This document shows, piece after piece, positions 7,895 to 46,369 of a stretch of 64,000 bases of DNA; positions within the stretch are counted from its first letter, which is position 1, and every line of letters starts with the position of its first letter. The translations under genes were made by a program, and so were the position numbers. Location: NCBI RefSeq assembly GCF_003024805.1, contig NZ_PUEC01000002.1, positions 124,001-188,000 on the forward strand, in the 5' to 3' direction. Source of the DNA: Duncaniella muris (GTDB taxonomy: Bacteria; Bacteroidota; Bacteroidia; Bacteroidales; Muribaculaceae). Below the pieces are notes generated by a model. That model did no database searches, was not told where the DNA came from, and saw only the letters and a program-made list of their open reading frames with translations.

Positions 7895-10243
7895 ATGCGT
7901 AAAACAGTATTGTTCCTGTCATTGGCCCTCATGTCCGGCATGTCGGCGACAGCCCGTAGCCTTAGTCCTGCAGAAGCATTGGGACGAGTGACCAACCAGC
8001 CCGCATTGCGCTCGTCAAGAGCTTCGGCCCAGACCCCGGTCATGACCGTAGGGACAGCGGACGCTCCGTCATTATACGTGTTCAACCGTCCGGAAGGCGG
8101 ATGGATGATTGTTGCGGCTGACGATGTCGCCGCCCCGGTCATAGGCTACAGTGACAGCGGAGCCATTGATCCTGCCAATCTGCCGGAAAACATGAAAGGA
8201 TGGCTTGACGACTGCAGCCGGCAGATTCTTGCGGCATCGGCTGACGGTGCCGGGCCATATCTTGCATCCGAGACTCCTGACCGCGAAGAGATTGCCCCGA
8301 TGGTAAAGACCACCTGGGACCAGGGGGCGCCTTACAACAAGCTCTGTCCAAAGGTATCAGGCCGTGCCACCTACACCGGCTGTGTAGCCACTGCGATGGC
8401 TCAGGTCATGAAGTTCTTCAACTGGCCGGCTCAGGCAGGTGCGAACGCCAACTTCTCATACAAATGGCGCGGAGGCCCTGCCGACACCCCGACTCTGAGC
8501 GCCGATTTCAGCAACTTCAGCTTTGACTGGAACAATATGCTTGACAGCTATTTCACAGCCTACAATTCAGCTCAGTCAGATGCCGTGGCCAATCTGATGA
8601 AGGCCTGCGGATATTCGGTCGAAATGGGCTACAGTCCTGTGGCATCCGCCGCGTTCAATGAAGTTGTGGGCCGGGCGCTTGTGACATATTTCGACTATGA
8701 CGGCGGCCTCCACAACGAGCCCCGCGAGCTCTACACCTCTGCCCGCTGGGAGCAGATGGTCTATGAGAACCTGCGCGACTGCGGCCCGATGGTCTACTGG
8801 GGTTCAGGCAGCGTGGGCCATTGTTTTGTCTGCGACGGCTATCGTCCCGATGGTTATTTCCACTTCAACTGGGGGTGGTCAGGCAACAGCGACGGCTACT
8901 TCCTGCTTGACGCCCTGAACCCGTCGTTTGTGGGTACCGGCGGTGGCACCGGCGGCTATAACAACGCCCAGGGAGCCCTTTTCGGTGCCAAGCCTTCTGA
9001 CGGACTCAGGCCTGAACCGGTCTATACGTTCACTTGCTCCAGCTTTTCGGATCTTACGGTCCTGGGCACTTTCCTGACCATTCAGGGCGAATTCAAGAAC
9101 CGCTCGCCCTACAATGTCAACGGGAAGGCCATCTATATGATCTACAGCGAAGACGGCTCGAAGCTTGTGACCACTGTCGATGATCTCACCACACCGTCGT
9201 CATTCTCTGACTTCGGTACGGAGCTAAGTTGTTTCAAACTGATGGGGTCGATCTCAAACTCGGTGCTCGGCGAGGGCACCTACCGTATATATCCCGGCAT
9301 TCGTGTCGACGGCAAGGACTACGTGTTCCGCACACCGGTATCAGAGGCTGACTACATTATCTACACCCGCACCAAAACCGGAACAAACCAGTATAAGAAC
9401 ACAGCCACAGTGCCCTCCGTAGGCGAGAAGGTAATCGAAAACCTCAGCACCAACGGCGACCTCTTTGTCGACAGCCAGTTCAAGGTGTCGGGCACAGCCC
9501 GCTTCACGGGCGAGGCCGAGACAAGCCTCTATCTTCTTGCCGCGCTTCTCGACGATGAGGGTAAAGTGCTTGTGACCGCCGAAGGTGCCAACATAACCTT
9601 CACCCCTGAGGGTAAACCCTTTGAATTCATCAGCTCATGGTTCAGACCAACTGTCAAGCCCGGCGACTACACATTCGCTCTGGTCCATATGAATGACATA
9701 ACCTATGAATACAACATCATGGCATCCTGCAAGACCACTGTGAGCCCGTATGTTTATGGTGACTATAAGATCAATGGCTTTAAAGTAGACAATCCCTCGG
9801 CTGTCGATCCGGCTGCTGTCAGCATGACAGCCACAGTGACCGGCCTGGCCGGTATTGCACAGGATAAGCTGTATTTCGAAATCAAGAACGCCTCAGGTGA
9901 GACTGTGGCAACCTTAATGAGAGATCTTTATGTGTCTGCCGGGAATACCGTCACTCTCAATGCCACCCTCTCGATCCCCGATGCCGTGGCGGGCGAAGCT
10001 TATACGGCCAATGTCTATTATGAAAGATATTCTTTCCCCGGCGGCATGAAGCCGGTCTACGATTTCCCTGACCTTCCCATCACCATCGGTGACACCAGCG
10101 GCATCTCAGACATCGGCGCCGATGTCAACGGCAAGGTGGAGTATTTCAACCTCCGCGGCCAGCGCGTCGATGCGGCAGATCTTGTCCCCGGCATCTACAT
10201 CCGCCGTCAGGGTTCGAAAGTCTCGAAAGTGATAGTGAAATAA
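7895..10243 (+). CDS. Secreted C10 (streptopain-like) cysteine peptidase, copy 2
   Basis: The product is 782 aa. Signal peptide MRKTVLFLSLALMSGMSATA; pro-region starting RSLSPAEALGRV; catalytic Cys163 (TGCVATAMAQVMKFF) and His309 (GSVGHCFVCDGY) with the NWGWSG loop; then beta-sandwich-like repeats. It ends in the short tail DTSGISDI ... EYFNLRGQRV ... GIYIRRQG ... VSKVIVK, which recurs in copies 3 and 4 and in the LRR protein at 16633. I infer an outer-membrane export signal. First gene of a three-gene run: copy 3 starts 36 bp after its stop. No clear TAnnTTTG promoter is visible in the 205 bp upstream. Confidence 0.92.
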   Translation: MRKTVLFLSLALMSGMSATARSLSPAEALGRVTNQPALRSSRASAQTPVMTVGTADAPSLYVFNRPEGGWMIVAADDVAAPVIGYSDSGAIDPANLPENMKGWLDDCSRQILAASADGAGPYLASETPDREEIAPMVKTTWDQGAPYNKLCPKVSGRATYTGCVATAMAQVMKFFNWPAQAGANANFSYKWRGGPADTPTLSADFSNFSFDWNNMLDSYFTAYNSAQSDAVANLMKACGYSVEMGYSPVASAAFNEVVGRALVTYFDYDGGLHNEPRELYTSARWEQMVYENLRDCGPMVYWGSGSVGHCFVCDGYRPDGYFHFNWGWSGNSDGYFLLDALNPSFVGTGGGTGGYNNAQGALFGAKPSDGLRPEPVYTFTCSSFSDLTVLGTFLTIQGEFKNRSPYNVNGKAIYMIYSEDGSKLVTTVDDLTTPSSFSDFGTELSCFKLMGSISNSVLGEGTYRIYPGIRVDGKDYVFRTPVSEADYIIYTRTKTGTNQYKNTATVPSVGEKVIENLSTNGDLFVDSQFKVSGTARFTGEAETSLYLLAALLDDEGKVLVTAEGANITFTPEGKPFEFISSWFRPTVKPGDYTFALVHMNDITYEYNIMASCKTTVSPYVYGDYKINGFKVDNPSAVDPAAVSMTATVTGLAGIAQDKLYFEIKNASGETVATLMRDLYVSAGNTVTLNATLSIPDAVAGEAYTANVYYERYSFPGGMKPVYDFPDLPITIGDTSGISDIGADVNGKVEYFNLRGQRVDAADLVPGIYIRRQGSKVSKVIVK

Positions 10244-10279
10244 ACCGACTGAAAAAAACAATCCCCCAAAAATAAACCG

Positions 10280-12595
10280 ATGAGAAAATCATTCTTATTC
10301 ATATCGCTGGCCGCCGTCATGGCCGCCCCCGTAGCCTCGGCCCGCAGCCTGAGCCCCTCGGAAGCTCTTGACAGGGCTACGGCTGAGGCCGTGATGCCGG
10401 TCTCACGCTCCGGCGGATCGCCGGAACTGATCATGACTCTCGGATCAGACGAGGCCCCGGCCATCTACGTGTTCAACCGTTCCGGCAAGGGCTATATGAT
10501 CCTCTCGGCCGACGATGTCGCAGCACCCGTGATAGGCTACAGCGACAACGGCCGCCTCGATCCTGACAACCTCCCCGAAAACCTGCGTTTCTGGCTTGAA
10601 CTCAACAAGGAGCAGATTCTCCGTGCCTCAGCCGAAGGCCATGCGCCTTATTCGCGTGCCGCCATTCCTGATCATGAGCCGATCGGTCCGCTGATGACAA
10701 CAATGTGGAACCAGGAAGGACCCTACAATGACCTCTGCCCTATGATTGGATCGGCGAGAACTGTCACCGGCTGTGTGGCCACCGCTATGGCCGAGGTCAT
10801 GAAATATCACAACTGGCCTGACAAGGGGGCGGAAGATGCCATGATCTCCTATCAGTGGCACAACGGCACGTCCGTTGTCACTCTGAGCGAAGATTTCAGC
10901 AACTACGAGTTCCAGTGGGATCTCATGATTGACGATTACCGCGACAGCCACACCAAAGAACAGGCCAACGCTGTGGCCAAGCTGATGCAGGCCTGCGGCT
11001 ATTCCGTCAGCATGAACTACGGCACCTCCGCCTCAGGCTCTTTCGGCGCGAAAGTGGGCGGTGCGCTGGTGAACTATTTCAAATATGACGCCGGACTCCA
11101 CAATGAACCGCGCGAGATGTACTCTTCTGCCGCCTGGGACAATATGATCTATGAAAACCTGAAAACCTGTGGTCCGGTGCTCTGGTGGGGTTCCGGCAGT
11201 GTCGGACACTGCTTTGTCTGCGACGGCTACCGTGGCGACGGATTCTACCACTTCAACTGGGGCTGGGGCGGTCTGAGCGATGGCTATTATCTTCTTGACG
11301 CGCTTAACCCCGGATCGACAGGGGTCGGCGGCGGCACAGGCGGCTTCAACAACGGCCAGGGTGTTCTCCTCGGTGTAAAGCCCGCCGGCAATGACTCGCC
11401 GGCCAAGCGCCGCTACACCTTCTATGCGTCTCAGGGCATCACCGAGACCTTTGTCTCCGGCTCGCTGCTGTCAATGTTCGGCACATTCAGCAACCTTTCG
11501 CCCTACATGGTTAACGCCACTTTCAAATTCCGTATCTTCGCTGAAGTAAACGGTGAGGAAAAATATCTGACATCATGCACGGCTTCGATCCCCTCGGCAG
11601 GTACGGAATTCTATCCTCCCTACTATGAGTCGATGATCGAATGTAACATCCCTGAGTCGTTGGAAGACGGGACATATCACATCTACCCCGCCGTTGAGTT
11701 TGATGGTGAGGAACATGTCTTCGCTTCGGCTCCCGGCTATCCTGATTATGTGATCTACACCCGCGAGGGAGGCGTCAACAAGGCCGAACTTCACCAGACG
11801 GCTTCTCTGGAAGTTGAAAATCTTTGTGCCAACGTCAACAATCTCATCTATAATGGCAAACGTTTCAGAGTCACCGGAACCGCGAAATTCGTTGGCGGCG
11901 TAGGCGATACCGAACGCTACATAGGTGTGCGCCTTCTCTCCCCATCAGGCGAGATCATTGCCTACAGCACCGAACTGAACATTAAATTTTCTGACGAGGG
12001 CTGTGACTTCGACTTCGTCAGCGCGGGCTTCAACATCGCTCCGGGCGAATACACTCTGGCTCTGCAGCTCGGTTTCGAGACGATAGCCACCTGCCCTGTG
12101 ACCATCACCGACGAGATCCCTGAAGGGGAATATCAGATCACTGCCGTCGAGGTTGTGTCAGCCGTAGATCCGCAGAATCTCAAGTTCAATATCACGGTCA
12201 AAGGTATCTCCGGCCTGATCGACGAATACATGACGGTGAAAATCAGTCGCAGCATCACTCCGCTCAACACCGACAGACGGGTGCCGGTGTTCGTCACCGG
12301 AGGCCAGACCGCGGTCATCAGCTACACTGTTTCGCTGCCAAGCTATATGGTTCTCCCCGGTCAGCAGCATATTGTGAGAGCCGAACGCCAGTCAGGCACT
12401 TCTACTGTCGGCAAAACGGCCTCCGCTTATTTCATACTTGGCGACACCAGCGGCATTGACGGAATCGGGGCCGATACCGAAGTCCCTGCCGAGTATTTCA
12501 ACCTTCAGGGCATGCCGGTCAGCGGTGAAAACCTTGCTCCAGGCATCTACATCCGCCGTCAGGGCCCGGAAGTGACCAAAATTCTTGTAAAATGA
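10280..12595 (+). CDS. Secreted C10 (streptopain-like) cysteine peptidase, copy 3
   Basis: The product is 771 aa with the same architecture as copy 2: signal peptide ending PVASA, pro-region RSLSPSEALDRA, Cys165 (TGCVATAMAEVMKYH), His310 (GSVGHCFVCDGY) and NWGWGG, long C-terminal beta region, and the tail EYFNLQGMPV ... GIYIRRQGPEVTKILVK. The catalytic residues are intact, so an active protease is expected. The substitution of Tyr by Val just before the catalytic TGC, and KTCGPVLWWG before the His loop, suggest a different substrate pocket. It is 36 bp downstream of copy 2 and 24 bp upstream of copy 4, consistent with one operon. Confidence 0.92.
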   Translation: MRKSFLFISLAAVMAAPVASARSLSPSEALDRATAEAVMPVSRSGGSPELIMTLGSDEAPAIYVFNRSGKGYMILSADDVAAPVIGYSDNGRLDPDNLPENLRFWLELNKEQILRASAEGHAPYSRAAIPDHEPIGPLMTTMWNQEGPYNDLCPMIGSARTVTGCVATAMAEVMKYHNWPDKGAEDAMISYQWHNGTSVVTLSEDFSNYEFQWDLMIDDYRDSHTKEQANAVAKLMQACGYSVSMNYGTSASGSFGAKVGGALVNYFKYDAGLHNEPREMYSSAAWDNMIYENLKTCGPVLWWGSGSVGHCFVCDGYRGDGFYHFNWGWGGLSDGYYLLDALNPGSTGVGGGTGGFNNGQGVLLGVKPAGNDSPAKRRYTFYASQGITETFVSGSLLSMFGTFSNLSPYMVNATFKFRIFAEVNGEEKYLTSCTASIPSAGTEFYPPYYESMIECNIPESLEDGTYHIYPAVEFDGEEHVFASAPGYPDYVIYTREGGVNKAELHQTASLEVENLCANVNNLIYNGKRFRVTGTAKFVGGVGDTERYIGVRLLSPSGEIIAYSTELNIKFSDEGCDFDFVSAGFNIAPGEYTLALQLGFETIATCPVTITDEIPEGEYQITAVEVVSAVDPQNLKFNITVKGISGLIDEYMTVKISRSITPLNTDRRVPVFVTGGQTAVISYTVSLPSYMVLPGQQHIVRAERQSGTSTVGKTASAYFILGDTSGIDGIGADTEVPAEYFNLQGMPVSGENLAPGIYIRRQGPEVTKILVK

Positions 12596-12619
12596 CAATT
12601 CTCTATTCTTTACAACCTT

Positions 12620-14959
12620 ATGCGTAAACCTCTATTGCTTTTGTCTCTGGCCGTCATGCTCGGCGGCCCTACAGCCACAGCGCGCAGTCTCAGCCCTGCC
12701 GAAGCGCTGGGGCGTGTCACCGGTCAATCGGTATCACGCTCAACGGCATCAGCCTCTGTGGCTCCGGTGATGACAGTGGGTCAGGCCGATGCTCCGGCTC
12801 TCTATGTGTTCAACCGTCCTGAAGGGGGCTGGATGATTGTATCGGCTGATGATGTGGCCATTCCGCTCGTGGGCTACAGTGACAGCGGTTCGATTGATCC
12901 CGCTGATCTTCCCGATAATTTCAAAGGTTGGCTCGACCTCTGCGCCGACGGAATCCGTATGGCTTCTGACTTCGGAGCCGAGCCTTACAGCCGCTCTGTC
13001 AGCCGCGCAGGCGATCCCCGTGAGCCGATAGCTCCTCTTGTAGCCACCCGCTGGGACCAGGGAGCGCCTTACAATACATTCTGCCCCAAGTCATCAGGAC
13101 GCCCAACCTACACCGGTTGCGTTGCTACCGCTATGGCCCAGGTGATGAAATATCACAACTGGCCTGACAAGGTGGCTGAAAATGCAAATCTCAGCTACAA
13201 ATGGAACAACGAAACCCTCACCGAGGACTTCAGCAACTATGAATTCGACTGGGCCGGCATGACCGACACATATACATATGGTCAGTACACCGAAACCCAG
13301 GCCGACGCCGTAGCCAAGCTGATGCAGGCCTGCGGCTACTCGCTCCGCATGAGATATGCCTCCGATGCCTCGGCCGCCTACCAAGAGCAGGTTGGCAATG
13401 CCCTTGTGTCATATTTCAGATATGACCTTGACATACACAACGAGTTCCGCAGCTTCCACACCACCGACGAGTGGGAGCAGATGGTCTATGACAACCTCAA
13501 AAACTGCGGCCCGATGGTCTACTGGGGCGGAGCTCACTGTTTTGTCTGCGACGGCTATGACAAAGACGGTTATTTCCACTTCAACTGGGGCTGGGCCGGC
13601 CTCGGCGACGGCTATTTCAGCCTGTCTATGCTCAAGCCGAGCAGCCTCGGTACAGGTGGCGGTACAGGTGACTACACCAGCAACCAGGGTGCGCTCTTCG
13701 GCATAAAGCCTTCCACCGGCGCTGACTCTCCCCGCCGCTACACTTTCTGCATTGATGATCTTACGAACGCCTATGCCGGAAACACATATTTCAACATACA
13801 CGGCACCTTCGTAAACCGCTCACCCTATACTGTCAGCGGTGAGTTCATCTATCAGATATTCAGCGAGGACGGAAGCAAAAAGATATCCACCAGCACCGTA
13901 GTTTCGCCTGTGTGCAGGAACTGGGGCATTGACATTGTTACCGGAAATACCGTGACTGCCCGTTCGATGATGGCCAAGATCTCAGGCCTTCCCGACGGTA
14001 CTTATCGTGTCTATCCGGCTGTGCGTATCGATGGCGAGGAATACAACTTCCAGTGTCCTCCCACTGTGGCCGGCTATGTGCTTATCACCGTCAAAAGCGG
14101 ACAGATTGTGGAATCTTCAATTCCCAAGGCCGGCGATCTGATTGTGGAGAACATTGACACCCACGGCGATTTCTATATCGACAGCAGCGTCAAAATCTCA
14201 GGTGTGGCCCGCTTCACCGGCAGAGCCGAGACAAGCACAGCTGTCAAGGCCGTGCTCCTCAACCCCGACAAGTCGGTACGCGCCTATTCGAACAGCAACA
14301 TCACTCTTGACTTCTCGCCTGAAGGCACTCCCTTTGAATTTGTGACAGACTGGTTCTATGACAAGGGGCTATCGGTTGATCCCGGTGAATGGACATTTGC
14401 CATCGCAATGGTTGAAAACGGAGCCTACACCATGCTGGGCACCTGCCCCGTGACAGTCAATTCAAGAGTTCCGAAGCCCACCTACAAGAGTCCGATTACG
14501 GTTTCTGTAGCCAATGCCGAAGCGGTCGATCCCAATGACATCAAGGTCTCTGTTTCAGTTGAAGGTCTTACCGGAGTTGTCTACCGTGATTTCGAACTGC
14601 GTGTATTCCAGTCAGGTTTCCTGGGTACGGTAGTAGCAAAAAAGACTGTGCCGGTTTATGTAAGCGCAGGCCGGACTGCCACCGAGACCGTCTCGCTCTC
14701 TCTTCCCAAAGCCGTTGCCGGACAGCGCTACTATGTGGTGGCTGTGGTCAACAATGCAGGCAAAGAAGAGTATGTCACAGCTGGGAATGTCTACTTCACC
14801 ATCGGCGACACCAGCGGCATAACCGATATCGAAGCCGACGGCAATGCCCCGGTTGAGTATTTCAACATCCAGGGTATGCCGGTAAATGCCGACAATCTTA
14901 CTCCCGGCATCTACATCCGCCGTCAGGGCGGCAACGTGACCAAAATCCAGATCCGTTAA
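12620..14959 (+). CDS. Secreted C10 (streptopain-like) cysteine peptidase, copy 4
   Basis: The product is 779 aa: signal peptide ending TATA, pro-region RSLSPAEALGRV, Cys167 (TGCVATAMAQVMKYH), His306, NWGWAG loop, and the tail EYFNIQGMPV ... GIYIRRQGGNVTKIQIR. The His loop reads YWGGAHCFVCDGY, whereas copies 2 and 3 have WGSGSVGHCFVCDGY. It is three residues shorter and the Gly before the catalytic His is replaced by Ala. Last gene of the C10 run; no clear terminator follows, and the composite-repeat block starts about 90 bp downstream. Confidence 0.92.
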   Translation: MRKPLLLLSLAVMLGGPTATARSLSPAEALGRVTGQSVSRSTASASVAPVMTVGQADAPALYVFNRPEGGWMIVSADDVAIPLVGYSDSGSIDPADLPDNFKGWLDLCADGIRMASDFGAEPYSRSVSRAGDPREPIAPLVATRWDQGAPYNTFCPKSSGRPTYTGCVATAMAQVMKYHNWPDKVAENANLSYKWNNETLTEDFSNYEFDWAGMTDTYTYGQYTETQADAVAKLMQACGYSLRMRYASDASAAYQEQVGNALVSYFRYDLDIHNEFRSFHTTDEWEQMVYDNLKNCGPMVYWGGAHCFVCDGYDKDGYFHFNWGWAGLGDGYFSLSMLKPSSLGTGGGTGDYTSNQGALFGIKPSTGADSPRRYTFCIDDLTNAYAGNTYFNIHGTFVNRSPYTVSGEFIYQIFSEDGSKKISTSTVVSPVCRNWGIDIVTGNTVTARSMMAKISGLPDGTYRVYPAVRIDGEEYNFQCPPTVAGYVLITVKSGQIVESSIPKAGDLIVENIDTHGDFYIDSSVKISGVARFTGRAETSTAVKAVLLNPDKSVRAYSNSNITLDFSPEGTPFEFVTDWFYDKGLSVDPGEWTFAIAMVENGAYTMLGTCPVTVNSRVPKPTYKSPITVSVANAEAVDPNDIKVSVSVEGLTGVVYRDFELRVFQSGFLGTVVAKKTVPVYVSAGRTATETVSLSLPKAVAGQRYYVVAVVNNAGKEEYVTAGNVYFTIGDTSGITDIEADGNAPVEYFNIQGMPVNADNLTPGIYIRRQGGNVTKIQIR

Positions 14960-15045
14960 TCCCCACGACCATTCGGATACGTCCGCGTTTATATTCCTCC
15001 ATCCCCCGCAGCCGGGCTGATATGGCTTTGGCGTGATGGTAAATC

Positions 15046-15755
15046 AATGTCCTGTCGGACATTATCAAAAAGGATACTATCTACCCCCCCGACACCTGCG
15101 CGCTTTGCGCTGCGGTGTCGGGGGCTACTATTAAATCGGTGTCCTGCCGGACACCCGCCCTCCGCGTCCGTGTGGATCCGGCATGTTGCACCCGCCCTCC
15201 GCGTCCGTGTGGATCCGGCATGTTGCACCCGCCCTCTGCGACCGTGTGGATCCGGCATGTTGCACCCGCCCTCTGCGACCGTGTGGATCCGGCATGTTGC
15301 ACCCGCCCTCCGCGTCCGTGCGGATCCGGCATGTTGCACCCGCCCCCCGCGTCCGTGTGGATCCGGCATGTTGTACCCGCCCTCTGCGTCCGTGTGGATC
15401 CGGCATGTTGCACCCGCCCTCTGCGACCATGCGGATGCGGTTCCGATGTTTCCACCGTCCCTGTGGGCGTGTGGTACCGGATGGTGATGTCCGTTAGGAC
15501 ATCGATTTACTCATAGCCCGTGACACCGCAGCGCCTTGCGCGCAGGTGTCACGGGTTTATGATTCCCCCGTCGTATCGTGTCCGTGAGGACACGGATTTA
15601 CGGATCCGTAAGGCGGGCGTCGAAATGAGGCTTAACCGGGAGTTCGCGTCTTACGTCCGTATCGTGATGGTAAATCAATGTCCTGCCGGACACCCGCCCT
15701 CTGCAACCGTGTGGATCCGGCATGTTGCACCCGCCCTCCGCGACCGTGTGGCATG
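15046..15755. repeat. Composite hairpin-repeat block, locus 1
   Basis: A non-coding 0.7-kb block. Short 18-bp palindromes of the form RTGTCC-N4-GGACAY (RYGTCC at 15577) occur at 15046-15063, 15138-15155, 15486-15503, 15577-15594 and 15677-15694. Long 39-bp palindromes with arms CCCCCGACACC / GGTGTCGGGGG or CCCGTGACACC / GGTGTCACGGG lie at 15086-15124 and 15517-15555. Long and short palindromes are joined by the same 13-nt spacer (GATTTACTCATAG or its reverse complement, with small changes). A 37-bp tandem array fills the middle. The same pieces recur at 45992-46369. Open frames here arise from the 37-bp period and are not genes. Confidence 0.85.
15154..15449. repeat. 37-bp tandem repeat array (7 full copies plus a decayed one)
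   Basis: Units begin CCCGCCCTCYGCG and contain TGTGGATCCGGCATGTTGCA. Starts are at 15154, 15191, 15228, 15265, 15302, 15339, 15376 and 15413, exactly 37 bp apart; the eighth decays after about 25 bp. Copies differ mainly at the GCGTCC/GCGACC position. Two more copies, at 15693 and 15730, follow another short palindrome. There are no spacers, so this is not a CRISPR array. Confidence 0.92.
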
Positions 15756-15771
15756 GCGGGGGGAAACAAAC

Positions 15772-15816
15772 GCGGCGTCGGCCCGGATGAAGGGCAGACG
15801 CCGCGCGCGTTTTTTA
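15772..15816 (-). terminator. Terminator of the small beta-barrel gene
   Basis: The arms GCGGCGTC / GACGCCGC (15772-15779 and 15797-15804) carry an inner GCCC/GGGC pair. On the minus strand GTTTGTTT follows; on the + strand a run of T also follows, so it could act in both directions. Confidence 0.65.
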
Positions 15817-15858
15817 TTCCGTAGCAAAGCCTCTCAGGAGGCTAAACCGTTGCGGGAT

Positions 15859-16362
15859 TTAGAAGTTGTAGTAGAAACCGAAAGAAAGGTTGTTGTGAAG
15901 GTCGATACCGTAAACTTTGCCACGTTCTTTAAGATCCTGATAGCCGAGGAAGCCCATGTGAGCTACGAGGCTGAACTTCTCGTTGAGGTTGAGAGAGATG
16001 CCGGGCTTGAGACCGATGCCCCATACTACAGAAGTGTCACCTTCATCAGGCTTAGAGAAACCGAGGTCAACACCGCCGTCAACGAAGAGGCTAACGAGAT
16101 CAGTGCGGAAGTAGGTGTAACGGGCATAGGGGTTGATTTCGAACTGGTTGTAAGCATCCTTAACCCAAGTATAGTTAAGACCTGCGCCGATAGCCCAGCT
16201 GTCATTGAGGTTATAGCCGATTTCGGGAGCGATAGTAAACTGATCGCCACTGCCAAGGTCAGTCTTTGCATGAGTGTAGCCGAGTGAACCACCTACATAA
16301 ACCTGAGCGGATACGCCGAGAGCCATAATAGCCATAACGGCCATAACTAAGAACTTTTTCAT
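15859..16362 (-). CDS. Small outer-membrane beta-barrel protein (OmpX-like fold)
   Basis: The product is 167 aa. The signal peptide ends at ALGVSAQ; then come alternating amphipathic strands (VYVGGSLGYTHA, FTIAPEIGYNL, WAIGAGLNYTW, INPYARYTYF, LVSLFVDGGVDLG, GIGLKPGISL, FSLVAHMGFLGY) and a terminal Phe (FGFYYNF), as in 8-stranded outer-membrane barrels. The specific function is unknown. Its -7 box lies about 110 bp upstream, giving a long AT-rich leader, and a hairpin terminator follows. Confidence 0.88.
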   Translation of the reverse strand: MKKFLVMAVMAIMALGVSAQVYVGGSLGYTHAKTDLGSGDQFTIAPEIGYNLNDSWAIGAGLNYTWVKDAYNQFEINPYARYTYFRTDLVSLFVDGGVDLGFSKPDEGDTSVVWGIGLKPGISLNLNEKFSLVAHMGFLGYQDLKERGKVYGIDLHNNLSFGFYYNF

Positions 16363-45896: not shown

Positions 45897-45991
45897 AAAT
45901 CCATATCGGAAAGAACTTTTGCAAATATACAACACCCGGTCCACGAAAGAGTGCGATAATGCGGATGGTAGCCCATCCGGAGCCGTAAATC

Positions 45992-46369
45992 GGTGTCCTG
46001 GCGGACACCACATGCCGGGGAGATGACAAACCCGTGACACCGCAGCGCAAAGCGCGCAGGTGTCACGGGCTATGAGTAAACCGATGTCCTGACGGACATC
46101 CCATTCTGGAATCCGCATGATCTCGCGGATGCCGGGGAACAACATACCCGCATCCGCACGGTCGCGGGACGGCGGGTACAATGCGTGACCGCATCCGCAT
46201 GGTCGCGGGGATGGCAGGGATCATACAAGACGGGTTCCGGAGGGGCTGAGGTTAGCGGGTGTCCGGCAGGACACCGAATTACTCGTAGCCCCCGACACCG
46301 CAGCGCAAAGCGCGCAGGTGTCGGGGGTGAAAGACAATCAAACAAATGTGGTGTCCGGTCGAGGACACC
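45992..46369. repeat. Composite hairpin-repeat block, locus 2
   Basis: Same family as 15046-15755. Short palindromes at 45992-46009, 46083-46100, 46258-46275 and 46350-46369; long palindromes at 46031-46069 (arms CCCGTGACACC / GGTGTCACGGG) and 46289-46327 (CCCCCGACACC / GGTGTCGGGGG). The long loop GCAGCGCAAAGCGCGCA is identical in both, and the 13-nt spacer (CTATGAGTAAACC, or GAATTACTCGTAG reversed) is retained. Between the pairs, at about 46114-46240, lie two or three diverged copies of the 37-bp unit sharing CATCCGCAYGGTCGCGGG. No gene is present. Confidence 0.85.

Follow-up and report, generated by a model that had tools for sequence, protein, structure and literature searches.

The hairpin-rich block at positions 15,046 to 15,755 of the window (the whole 64,000-nucleotide stretch of Duncaniella muris DNA that was analysed, contig 12:124001-188000 of the 3.27 Mb, 79-contig host assembly G000) is probably a BIME-like pair of composite REP-type units. 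On this reading a Y1 (HUH) transposase from the IS200 branch, which carries a subclass 1.2 signature and whose gene is bracketed by such units in relatives, acts or used to act on them as non-autonomous single-stranded substrates. We infer that this transposase mobilises the units. A sequence-only reading of the block had offered a REP-like or non-autonomous mobile unit as one of several possibilities, and this one is now well supported: the hairpins are present in high copy, lie between genes, are paired in inverted orientation and, in relatives, bracket Y1 genes.

Each unit consists of an outer short hairpin (S_out), a long hairpin (L) and an inner short hairpin (S_in). At locus 1, unit B is read on the plus strand and contains S_out (15046..15063), L (15086..15124), a 13-nt spacer, CTACTATTAAATC (15125..15137), and S_in (15138..15155). 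Its L hairpin has type B arms (CCCCCGACACC/GGTGTCGGGGG) and within them a GCGC stem, a 3x3 internal loop and a 3-nt loop that varies in the family; on the minus strand the spacer reads GATTTAATAGTAG, with GTAG as the 5' foot of L. Unit A faces it on the minus strand, with S_in at 15486..15503, a 13-nt spacer at 15504..15516 (CTATGAGTAAATC on that strand, with an ATAG foot), L with type A arms (CCCGTGACACC/GGTGTCACGGG) at 15517..15555 and S_out at 15577..15594. The element centre, a 37-bp tandem array of 7.8 copies (15152..15440, no strand), is a feature distinct from both units and is placed between them. An extra imperfect short hairpin on the plus strand (15677..15694) is followed by a partial 37-bp array that runs to about 15751. 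The coordinates confirm the five short and two 39-nt palindromes first described here; four of the five short palindromes have 7-bp stems, and the fifth (AATGTCC...GGACACC) has its two outer pairs mismatched. The earlier claim that one and the same 13-nt spacer is used in both orientations holds for its length and for the motif TAAATC, but not for the whole sequence, as CTACTATTAAATC and CTATGAGTAAATC are identical at only 10 of 13 positions.

Within the window, the pattern of TAAATC plus the short palindrome, with up to three mismatches, has 8 matches against 0.12 expected, and the long-hairpin pattern has 4 against 0.01 expected. Folded as single-stranded DNA, the four stretches of the window that contain units are very stable (z = -5.6 to -9.0), and the fold of the 37-bp array is unremarkable (z = +0.55). 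Directly upstream of locus 1, at window positions 7895-14959, are three tandem paralogues of 771-782 aa, each ending in a GIYIRRQG tail, which we take, judging by eye, to be C10-peptidase-like.

A second locus in the window has the same construction. There unit A is on the plus strand, with S_out at 45992..46009, a type A L hairpin whose apex is in reversed orientation at 46031..46069 and S_in at 46083..46100; a degenerate centre (46101..46257, no strand) separates it from unit B on the minus strand, with S_in at 46258..46275, a type B L hairpin at 46289..46327 and an S_out with a 6-nt loop at 46350..46369. A promoter-like stretch, GCATTATCGCACT..TTGTATCTTTGCA, which reads outward, adjoins the outside of unit A at window positions 45920-45990, and similar stretches lie beside A units at L020, L022, L024, L032, L035 and L041 and at L062 of the sister genome G025. 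With one mismatch allowed, so that some matches are due to chance, TAnnTTTGCA is found in 18 of 58 A-side flanks versus 3 of 48 B-side flanks. Such a stretch could be a relic of a transposase promoter or a preferred target.

These two loci belong to a large family. The short palindrome has 58 exact matches in the host genome (2 for the reversed-pattern control), and the long hairpin with up to three mismatches has 48 (control 0); a few short-palindrome matches, at L036, L037 and L046, stand outside any unit. The order of parts is an outer S hairpin, 19-25 nt, an L hairpin, 13 nt and an inner S hairpin, and across the host and G025 the inner spacer is 13 nt long in 97 of 100 units and the outer spacer 19-25 nt in 98 of 101 (13 nt in the other three). 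Read outward from S_in, a unit thus runs S_in, GATTTAC..RTAG (13 nt), L, 19 to 25 nt, S_out and again GATTTAC. After S_in the spacer motif is GATTTAC in 48 of 96 units, GGTTTAC in 21 and GATTTAA in 18, counted with a collecting pattern that favours GATTTAC; in the outer flanks GATTTAC follows S in 91 of 107 cases. The 5' foot of L is GTAG in 69 and ATAG in 27 of 96 units, under a search pattern that favoured TAG. Arms come in two types, A (CCCGTGACACC) and B (CCCCCGACACC), with CCCGT/ACGGG and CCCCC/GGGGG, and two host units carry a further compensated change, TACACC/GGTGTA, which makes the next pair T-A. Neighbouring units up to 600 nt apart combine one A with one B in 13 of 14 pairs in the host and 18 of 22 in G025, and the same fractions, 13 of 14 and 18 of 22, hold for opposed orientation (these counts omit three pairs only 16 nt apart, in which a single unit is read on both strands). 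The centre is, by eye, a degenerate array, regular at 37 bp in locus 1 of the window.

The units also bear possible traces of exchange. In 5 of 90 cores the apex of L is reversed relative to its arms; such sites occur at window positions 46031-46069 and at L021, L025 (2779), L089 (5964) and L099. At L059, L087, L089 (5964-6032) and L100 the A and B arms are swapped or mixed, CCCCC facing ACGGG for instance, which points to recombination or conversion between hairpins. Several contigs of G025, G020 and G021 begin or finish inside the repeat, and because the repeat breaks assemblies, true copy numbers may be higher than those given here.

Maintenance of the hairpin structure across copies is supported by covariation among 90 distinct cores from the host and G025, compared with 500 shuffles. 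Standard pairs fill 98.8% of the pair cells, a level reached by none of the 500 shuffles, in a set whose collecting pattern tolerates two long-hairpin mismatches and so favours paired cores. Double changes occupy 137 cells (0 of 500 shuffles as high), the covariation score is likewise reached by 0 of 500 shuffles, and sliding the pairing out of register lowers the paired cells to 31-50%. Two other measures are weaker: the number of pairs with double changes is six, equalled or exceeded in 9 of 500 shuffles, and that of further pair types is 12, equalled or exceeded in 496 of 500. The covarying arms that the sequence-only reading had noted are borne out, and the maintenance of structure for which it had argued is supported. 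Its suggestion that an RNA in particular might be under selection finds no support in the mismatches that remain, which comprise 9 G-T and 12 A-C with no strand bias, so that selection at the DNA level or symmetrical selection would account for them no less well than selection on RNA. An RNA selected on one strand was rejected for lack of a G-T excess, and a known RNA family on the strength of an Rfam scan of window positions 14900-15900, in which nothing came near its gathering score.

The position of the elements relative to genes bears on a related reading, that the block is a structured RNA element or a bidirectional terminator at the 3' ends of genes, for which transposase flanks would be just one type of site. 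The 30 element-containing gaps that could be classed comprise 18 convergent, 12 tandem and 0 divergent gaps (in 3 of the 33 clusters a gene was missing on one flank), versus 3 convergent, 46 tandem and 12 divergent among 61 other gaps in the same loci (Fisher 1.5e-8). Genes were called as ORFs by length alone, with ORFs mostly inside an element dropped, and single gap classes may therefore be wrong; a cruder first tally had 19 convergent gaps, 11 tandem ones and 0 divergent, with 3 left unclassed. None of the 33 clusters lies inside an ORF of at least 150 aa, once ORFs with more than 35% of their length in the element had been dropped. The bias to convergent gene ends, the absence between divergent genes, the strong covariation and the very stable folds would all suit a terminator, as would a run of at least six T in the 10 nt after L on one strand in 16 of 106 units. 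However, on the opposite strand this T-rich stretch is found in 0 of 106 units, and 90 of 106 lack it on both strands; the mismatches show no strand bias, no Rfam family scores above its gathering threshold, and this reading would not predict that the Y1 genes of one clade are flanked by units in inverted orientation. We regard it as unlikely, and the earlier proposal of a structured RNA draws no support from strand asymmetry or from Rfam.

The distribution of the unit across genomes disposes of a simpler account, local duplication of two loci in one genome, which fails on copy number, on covariation and on the occurrence of copies in relatives. With up to two mismatches, the 27 genomes of the genus include just two that are rich in long hairpins, the host (47) and G025 (71), and a third has a single two-mismatch site. 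The exact long-hairpin pattern is present in 54 stretches of the named genome collection, of which 38 come from the sister MAG CAMXAZ, an uncultured member of the Muribaculaceae that matches G025 by contig coordinates and is the only rich record there; the remaining 16 are single sites in other taxa and are taken as chance. A covariance model of the unit, R1, reaches further and detects it in 53 of 397 family genomes and 15 of 30 genera, in a survey that scored at most 12 candidates per genome, so that per-genome copy counts are lower bounds. Beyond the host and its sister, the arm sequences of these units differ and the spacer is similar. The search of the genome and its relatives that the sequence-only reading had called for thus uncovers a family far larger than two loci.

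Most host copies look inherited, since 29 of 33 host clusters share at least one flank with an element-bearing locus of G025 (one of them on 75 bp only). This, together with the chimaeric arms and reversed apices that suggest conversion, would be expected if the block were an old hairpin repeat that is no longer mobile, spread by local duplication and gene conversion, and that now serves as a chromosome-architecture or protein-binding site. Against this stand the patchy presence across genera, the transposase genes bracketed by units, and an element-free orthologous spacer in G015, where the matched flanks of window locus 2 are 83 nt apart rather than 625 as in the host. G015 has neither an R1 match nor a PF01797 match, and its element-free spacer is too diverged for an exact junction to be read. 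L033, a host cluster with no matching element locus in G025, is not a clean empty site; its left flank is present in G025, with further units about 1.9 kb on. On balance we consider an immobile repeat quite unlikely.

The evidence that carries the transposase reading comes from relatives. The Y1 transposase domain PF01797 is found in 13 of the 27 genus genomes. Fifty Y1 genes were scored for flanking units (60 loci, L017, L107-L135 and L166-L195, less 5 without an ORF and 5 duplicate fetches). R1 units lie in inverted orientation on both sides of 17 of the 50, on one side of 5 and on neither side of 28; L184, which has no ORF by our rule and is outside the 17 of 50, also has R1 matches on both sides. 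Five R1 matches closer than 150 nt to a Y1 gene are in the opposite orientation to that expected. In the transposase tree, a single clade with 18 rows and a support of 98/94 contains 16 of the 17 genes flanked on both sides. The sequence-only reading had proposed looking for a Y1 transposase with related terminal hairpins, and it is in relatives that the units bracket such genes.

Co-occurrence points the same way. Family genomes with a strong match to the transposase profile A3 (best E <=1e-57) are R1-positive in 16 of 17 cases, versus 37 of 380 other genomes (Fisher 1.7e-14); of the 8 genes in the A3 profile 7 are flanked, and five of these 17 genomes supplied it, which enriches the counts made with it. 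With the five profile-source genomes removed, 11 of 12 strong-A3 genomes are R1-positive, and in the genus set chosen by PF01797 rather than by A3 score (L107-L135), 6 of 25 genes are flanked on both sides. In the other direction, 37 of the 53 R1-positive genomes are without a strong A3 partner match. A3 matches number 1 to 9 per positive family genome.

Unrelated sequences of the same grammar, a short hairpin, a spacer and a long hairpin, flank other Y1 genes. A test based on structure alone looked for a hairpin, 9-17 nt ending in TA[AG] and a second hairpin, with 150 nt needed on both sides, under a rule set after reading 12 flanks, some of which were also scored. Both flanks pass at 11 of 48 loci and one flank at 9 of 48; in 20 rounds of shuffling no locus passed on both flanks and 0-2 passed on one, and distant windows gave 0 and 0 of 34. 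Six of the 28 genes without an R1 flank pass on both sides, and structure-only passes without R1 matches include L109, L183 and L192. The spacer feet at Y1 genes (n=31, TA[AG] required) are GTAA in 15 cases, GTAG in 4, TTAA in 4, ATAG in 3, ATAA in 3, TTAG in 1 and CTAA in 1. Outside the family, 26 loci (30 fetched, less 3 without an ORF by rule and 1 with a short flank) gave 3 with both flanks and 7 with one, a count that stands without a shuffle control. Y1 genes of other Bacteroidota families, among them L216, L217, L223 and L229, are flanked by similar units, one example being a short hairpin, AATGTGAATAA and a CCCCGGGT..ACCCGGGG hairpin. The two-hairpin grammar may be phylum-wide.

In one group of genomes the units that flank a transposase gene also occur dispersed. 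The transposase-flanking unit of G020 has 55 matches in that genome (its own site and partial matches included), 31 in G021 and 12 in G008. Across G020, G021, G008 and G026, 15 of 17 fetched stretches with dispersed copies contain an inverted pair 168-184 nt apart, ordered as at the transposase locus and with no room for a gene, as is expected of non-autonomous derivatives. Some results speak against the transposase reading. In the host, 12 of 14 neighbouring pairs, 162-415 nt apart, are inside-out when compared with the transposase loci, and so are 14 of 22 pairs in G025 (133-285 nt); the transposase-locus order is seen in four G025 pairs spaced by 176-179 nt and in a single host pair spaced by 183 nt. 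For dispersed units, the closest transposase flank comes from the same genome in only 2 of 26 cases, and the arms differ.

Seven transposases, P0001-P0007, characterise the partner. They are 143-150 aa long and carry the motifs DH[IV]H and YI-NQ--HH (Y---Q--HH). All score above the cut-off of NF033573 (IS200/IS605), and against NF047646 (REP_Tyr_transpos) they reach 20.7-29.6 bits, where the cut-off is 80. P0007 has an R1 flank on one side and structure-only flanks on both. One of the closest solved structures is that of the IS608 (ISHp608) transposase. Matches to P0002 in the plasmid and phage collections (226 and 17 records) were all distant, below 60% identity.

The closest published description is that of TnpA-Y1 subclass 1.2, a low-copy type of Cyanobacteria and Bacteroidetes with a shorter core domain and a specific C-terminal domain (Quentin et al. 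2018, PMC6006769). The transposases here share with it DH[IV]H, YI-NQ--HH, a length of about 148 aa and a Bacteroidetes host. Its subclass table enters REP as 'no', and the accompanying text describes the subclass as generally without terminal IS200 structures (PMC6006769), whereas here two-hairpin units flank many genes. In addition, the WQ of that table is in none of P0001-P0007, which have WA, WS or WE, and is present in several Bacteroidota relatives outside the family. Since WQ is absent and the comparison covered motifs and length, we speak of transposases with a subclass 1.2 signature and not of members of the subclass.

The host itself has a single Y1_Tnp match, at L017 (G000 contig 26:23641-23973), in which a Cys replaces the conserved Tyr. 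It lacks flanking units, has a TonB-receptor-like neighbour (judged by eye) and sits on a very long branch of the tree; the missing tyrosine, the lack of units and the branch length rule it out as an active partner, and it is possibly a domesticated remnant. In the sister G025, with its 71 long-hairpin sites, a search for Y1 matches found none.

The system resembles REP/BIME (REPIN) repeats and their TnpA-REP (RAYT) transposases in many respects. Both consist of high-copy intergenic imperfect hairpins, and the RTAG seen here at the 5' foot of L may correspond to the GT[AG]G foot of REP hairpins; in both, hairpin types are paired in inverted orientation at sites between convergent or tandem genes, a Y1 gene is bracketed by inverted copies, and some genomes have the repeats without the partner gene. 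However, the unit here is two linked hairpins with a fixed 13-nt spacer where REP is one, its foot is GTAG or ATAG (mostly GTAA at other transposase genes), and its transposase reads YI-NQ--HH in place of the YI--NP of TnpA-REP (class 2). As the proteins fall short of the cut-off for TnpA-REP transposases, we call the units REP-like in working and do not place them in the TnpA-REP class. REP systems were already on record for the phylum, because TnpA-REP subclasses 2.4 and 2.6 are tabulated with REP-like structures in Bacteroidetes (PMC6006769). The GTAG and CGTC superfamilies are likewise tagged palindromic repeats; in the phylum listing of Di Nocera et al. 2013 (PMC3733652), GTAG repeats are placed in phyla other than Bacteroidetes and go with RAYTs, and Bacteroidetes has only CGTC repeats, which seem to be without a dedicated transposase.

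IS608 has its ends in direct orientation. With the IS200/IS605 group to which it belongs the present system shares hairpin ends and proteins that pass NF033573, but the units are inverted, the dispersed copies that were read carry no gene, and a multicopy autonomous element was not found. The weakest alternative, very improbable, is that an ordinary DDE transposase moves the element as a classical MITE with a minisatellite inside it: inverted ends around a tandem-repeat centre, intergenic sites and tens of copies do recall BrickBuilt of the Bacteroidales species Porphyromonas gingivalis, whose layout is alike and whose ends resemble those of IS elements of that species (PMC4596501, the main text of which uses neither 'hairpin' nor 'IS200'), but here hairpins form the ends, the internal grammar of these ends is fixed, and the gene they bracket is a Y1 gene.

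On the model of REP and IS608, we propose that the transposase would recognise the hairpins in single-stranded DNA and would cleave beside them; candidate cleavage sites are the foot of L (RTAG/GTAA) and the GATTTAC that follows each S. It may have spread the units in trans. The host species and its sister would have lost the partner transposase, and their approximately 50-70 long hairpins would be orphans that persist through descent and gene conversion and because they are tolerated at the ends of genes. The genomes compared gave no sign of a recent insertion, an excision or a target duplication.

A broader hypothesis, to which we give about even chances, is that across the Bacteroidota each Y1 transposase with the subclass 1.2 signature serves its own two-hairpin family (a short hairpin, 11-14 nt ending in TAA or TAG, a long hairpin and a short one). 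The composite hairpin pairs would be the transposable unit, and the whole would form a REP system that arose from the IS200 branch, separate from TnpA-REP. We temper this reading because WQ is missing and because the phylum-level test has no shuffle control. In the literature on REP-associated and IS200 transposases, RAYT/REPIN systems and palindromic repeats in Bacteroidetes and Muribaculaceae, from which subscription papers and preprints mostly fell outside the search, no title or abstract opening describes such a partner.

REP repeats are widespread in bacteria, and how a low-copy transposase-like gene sustains a population of repeats is a standing question. A separate lineage in which an IS200-branch Y1 transposase goes with composite hairpins would, if true, provide an independent test of what a REP system needs. 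A named transposase type that previously had no partner gains a candidate substrate, and the repeat family accounts for the repeats at contig ends in these assemblies.
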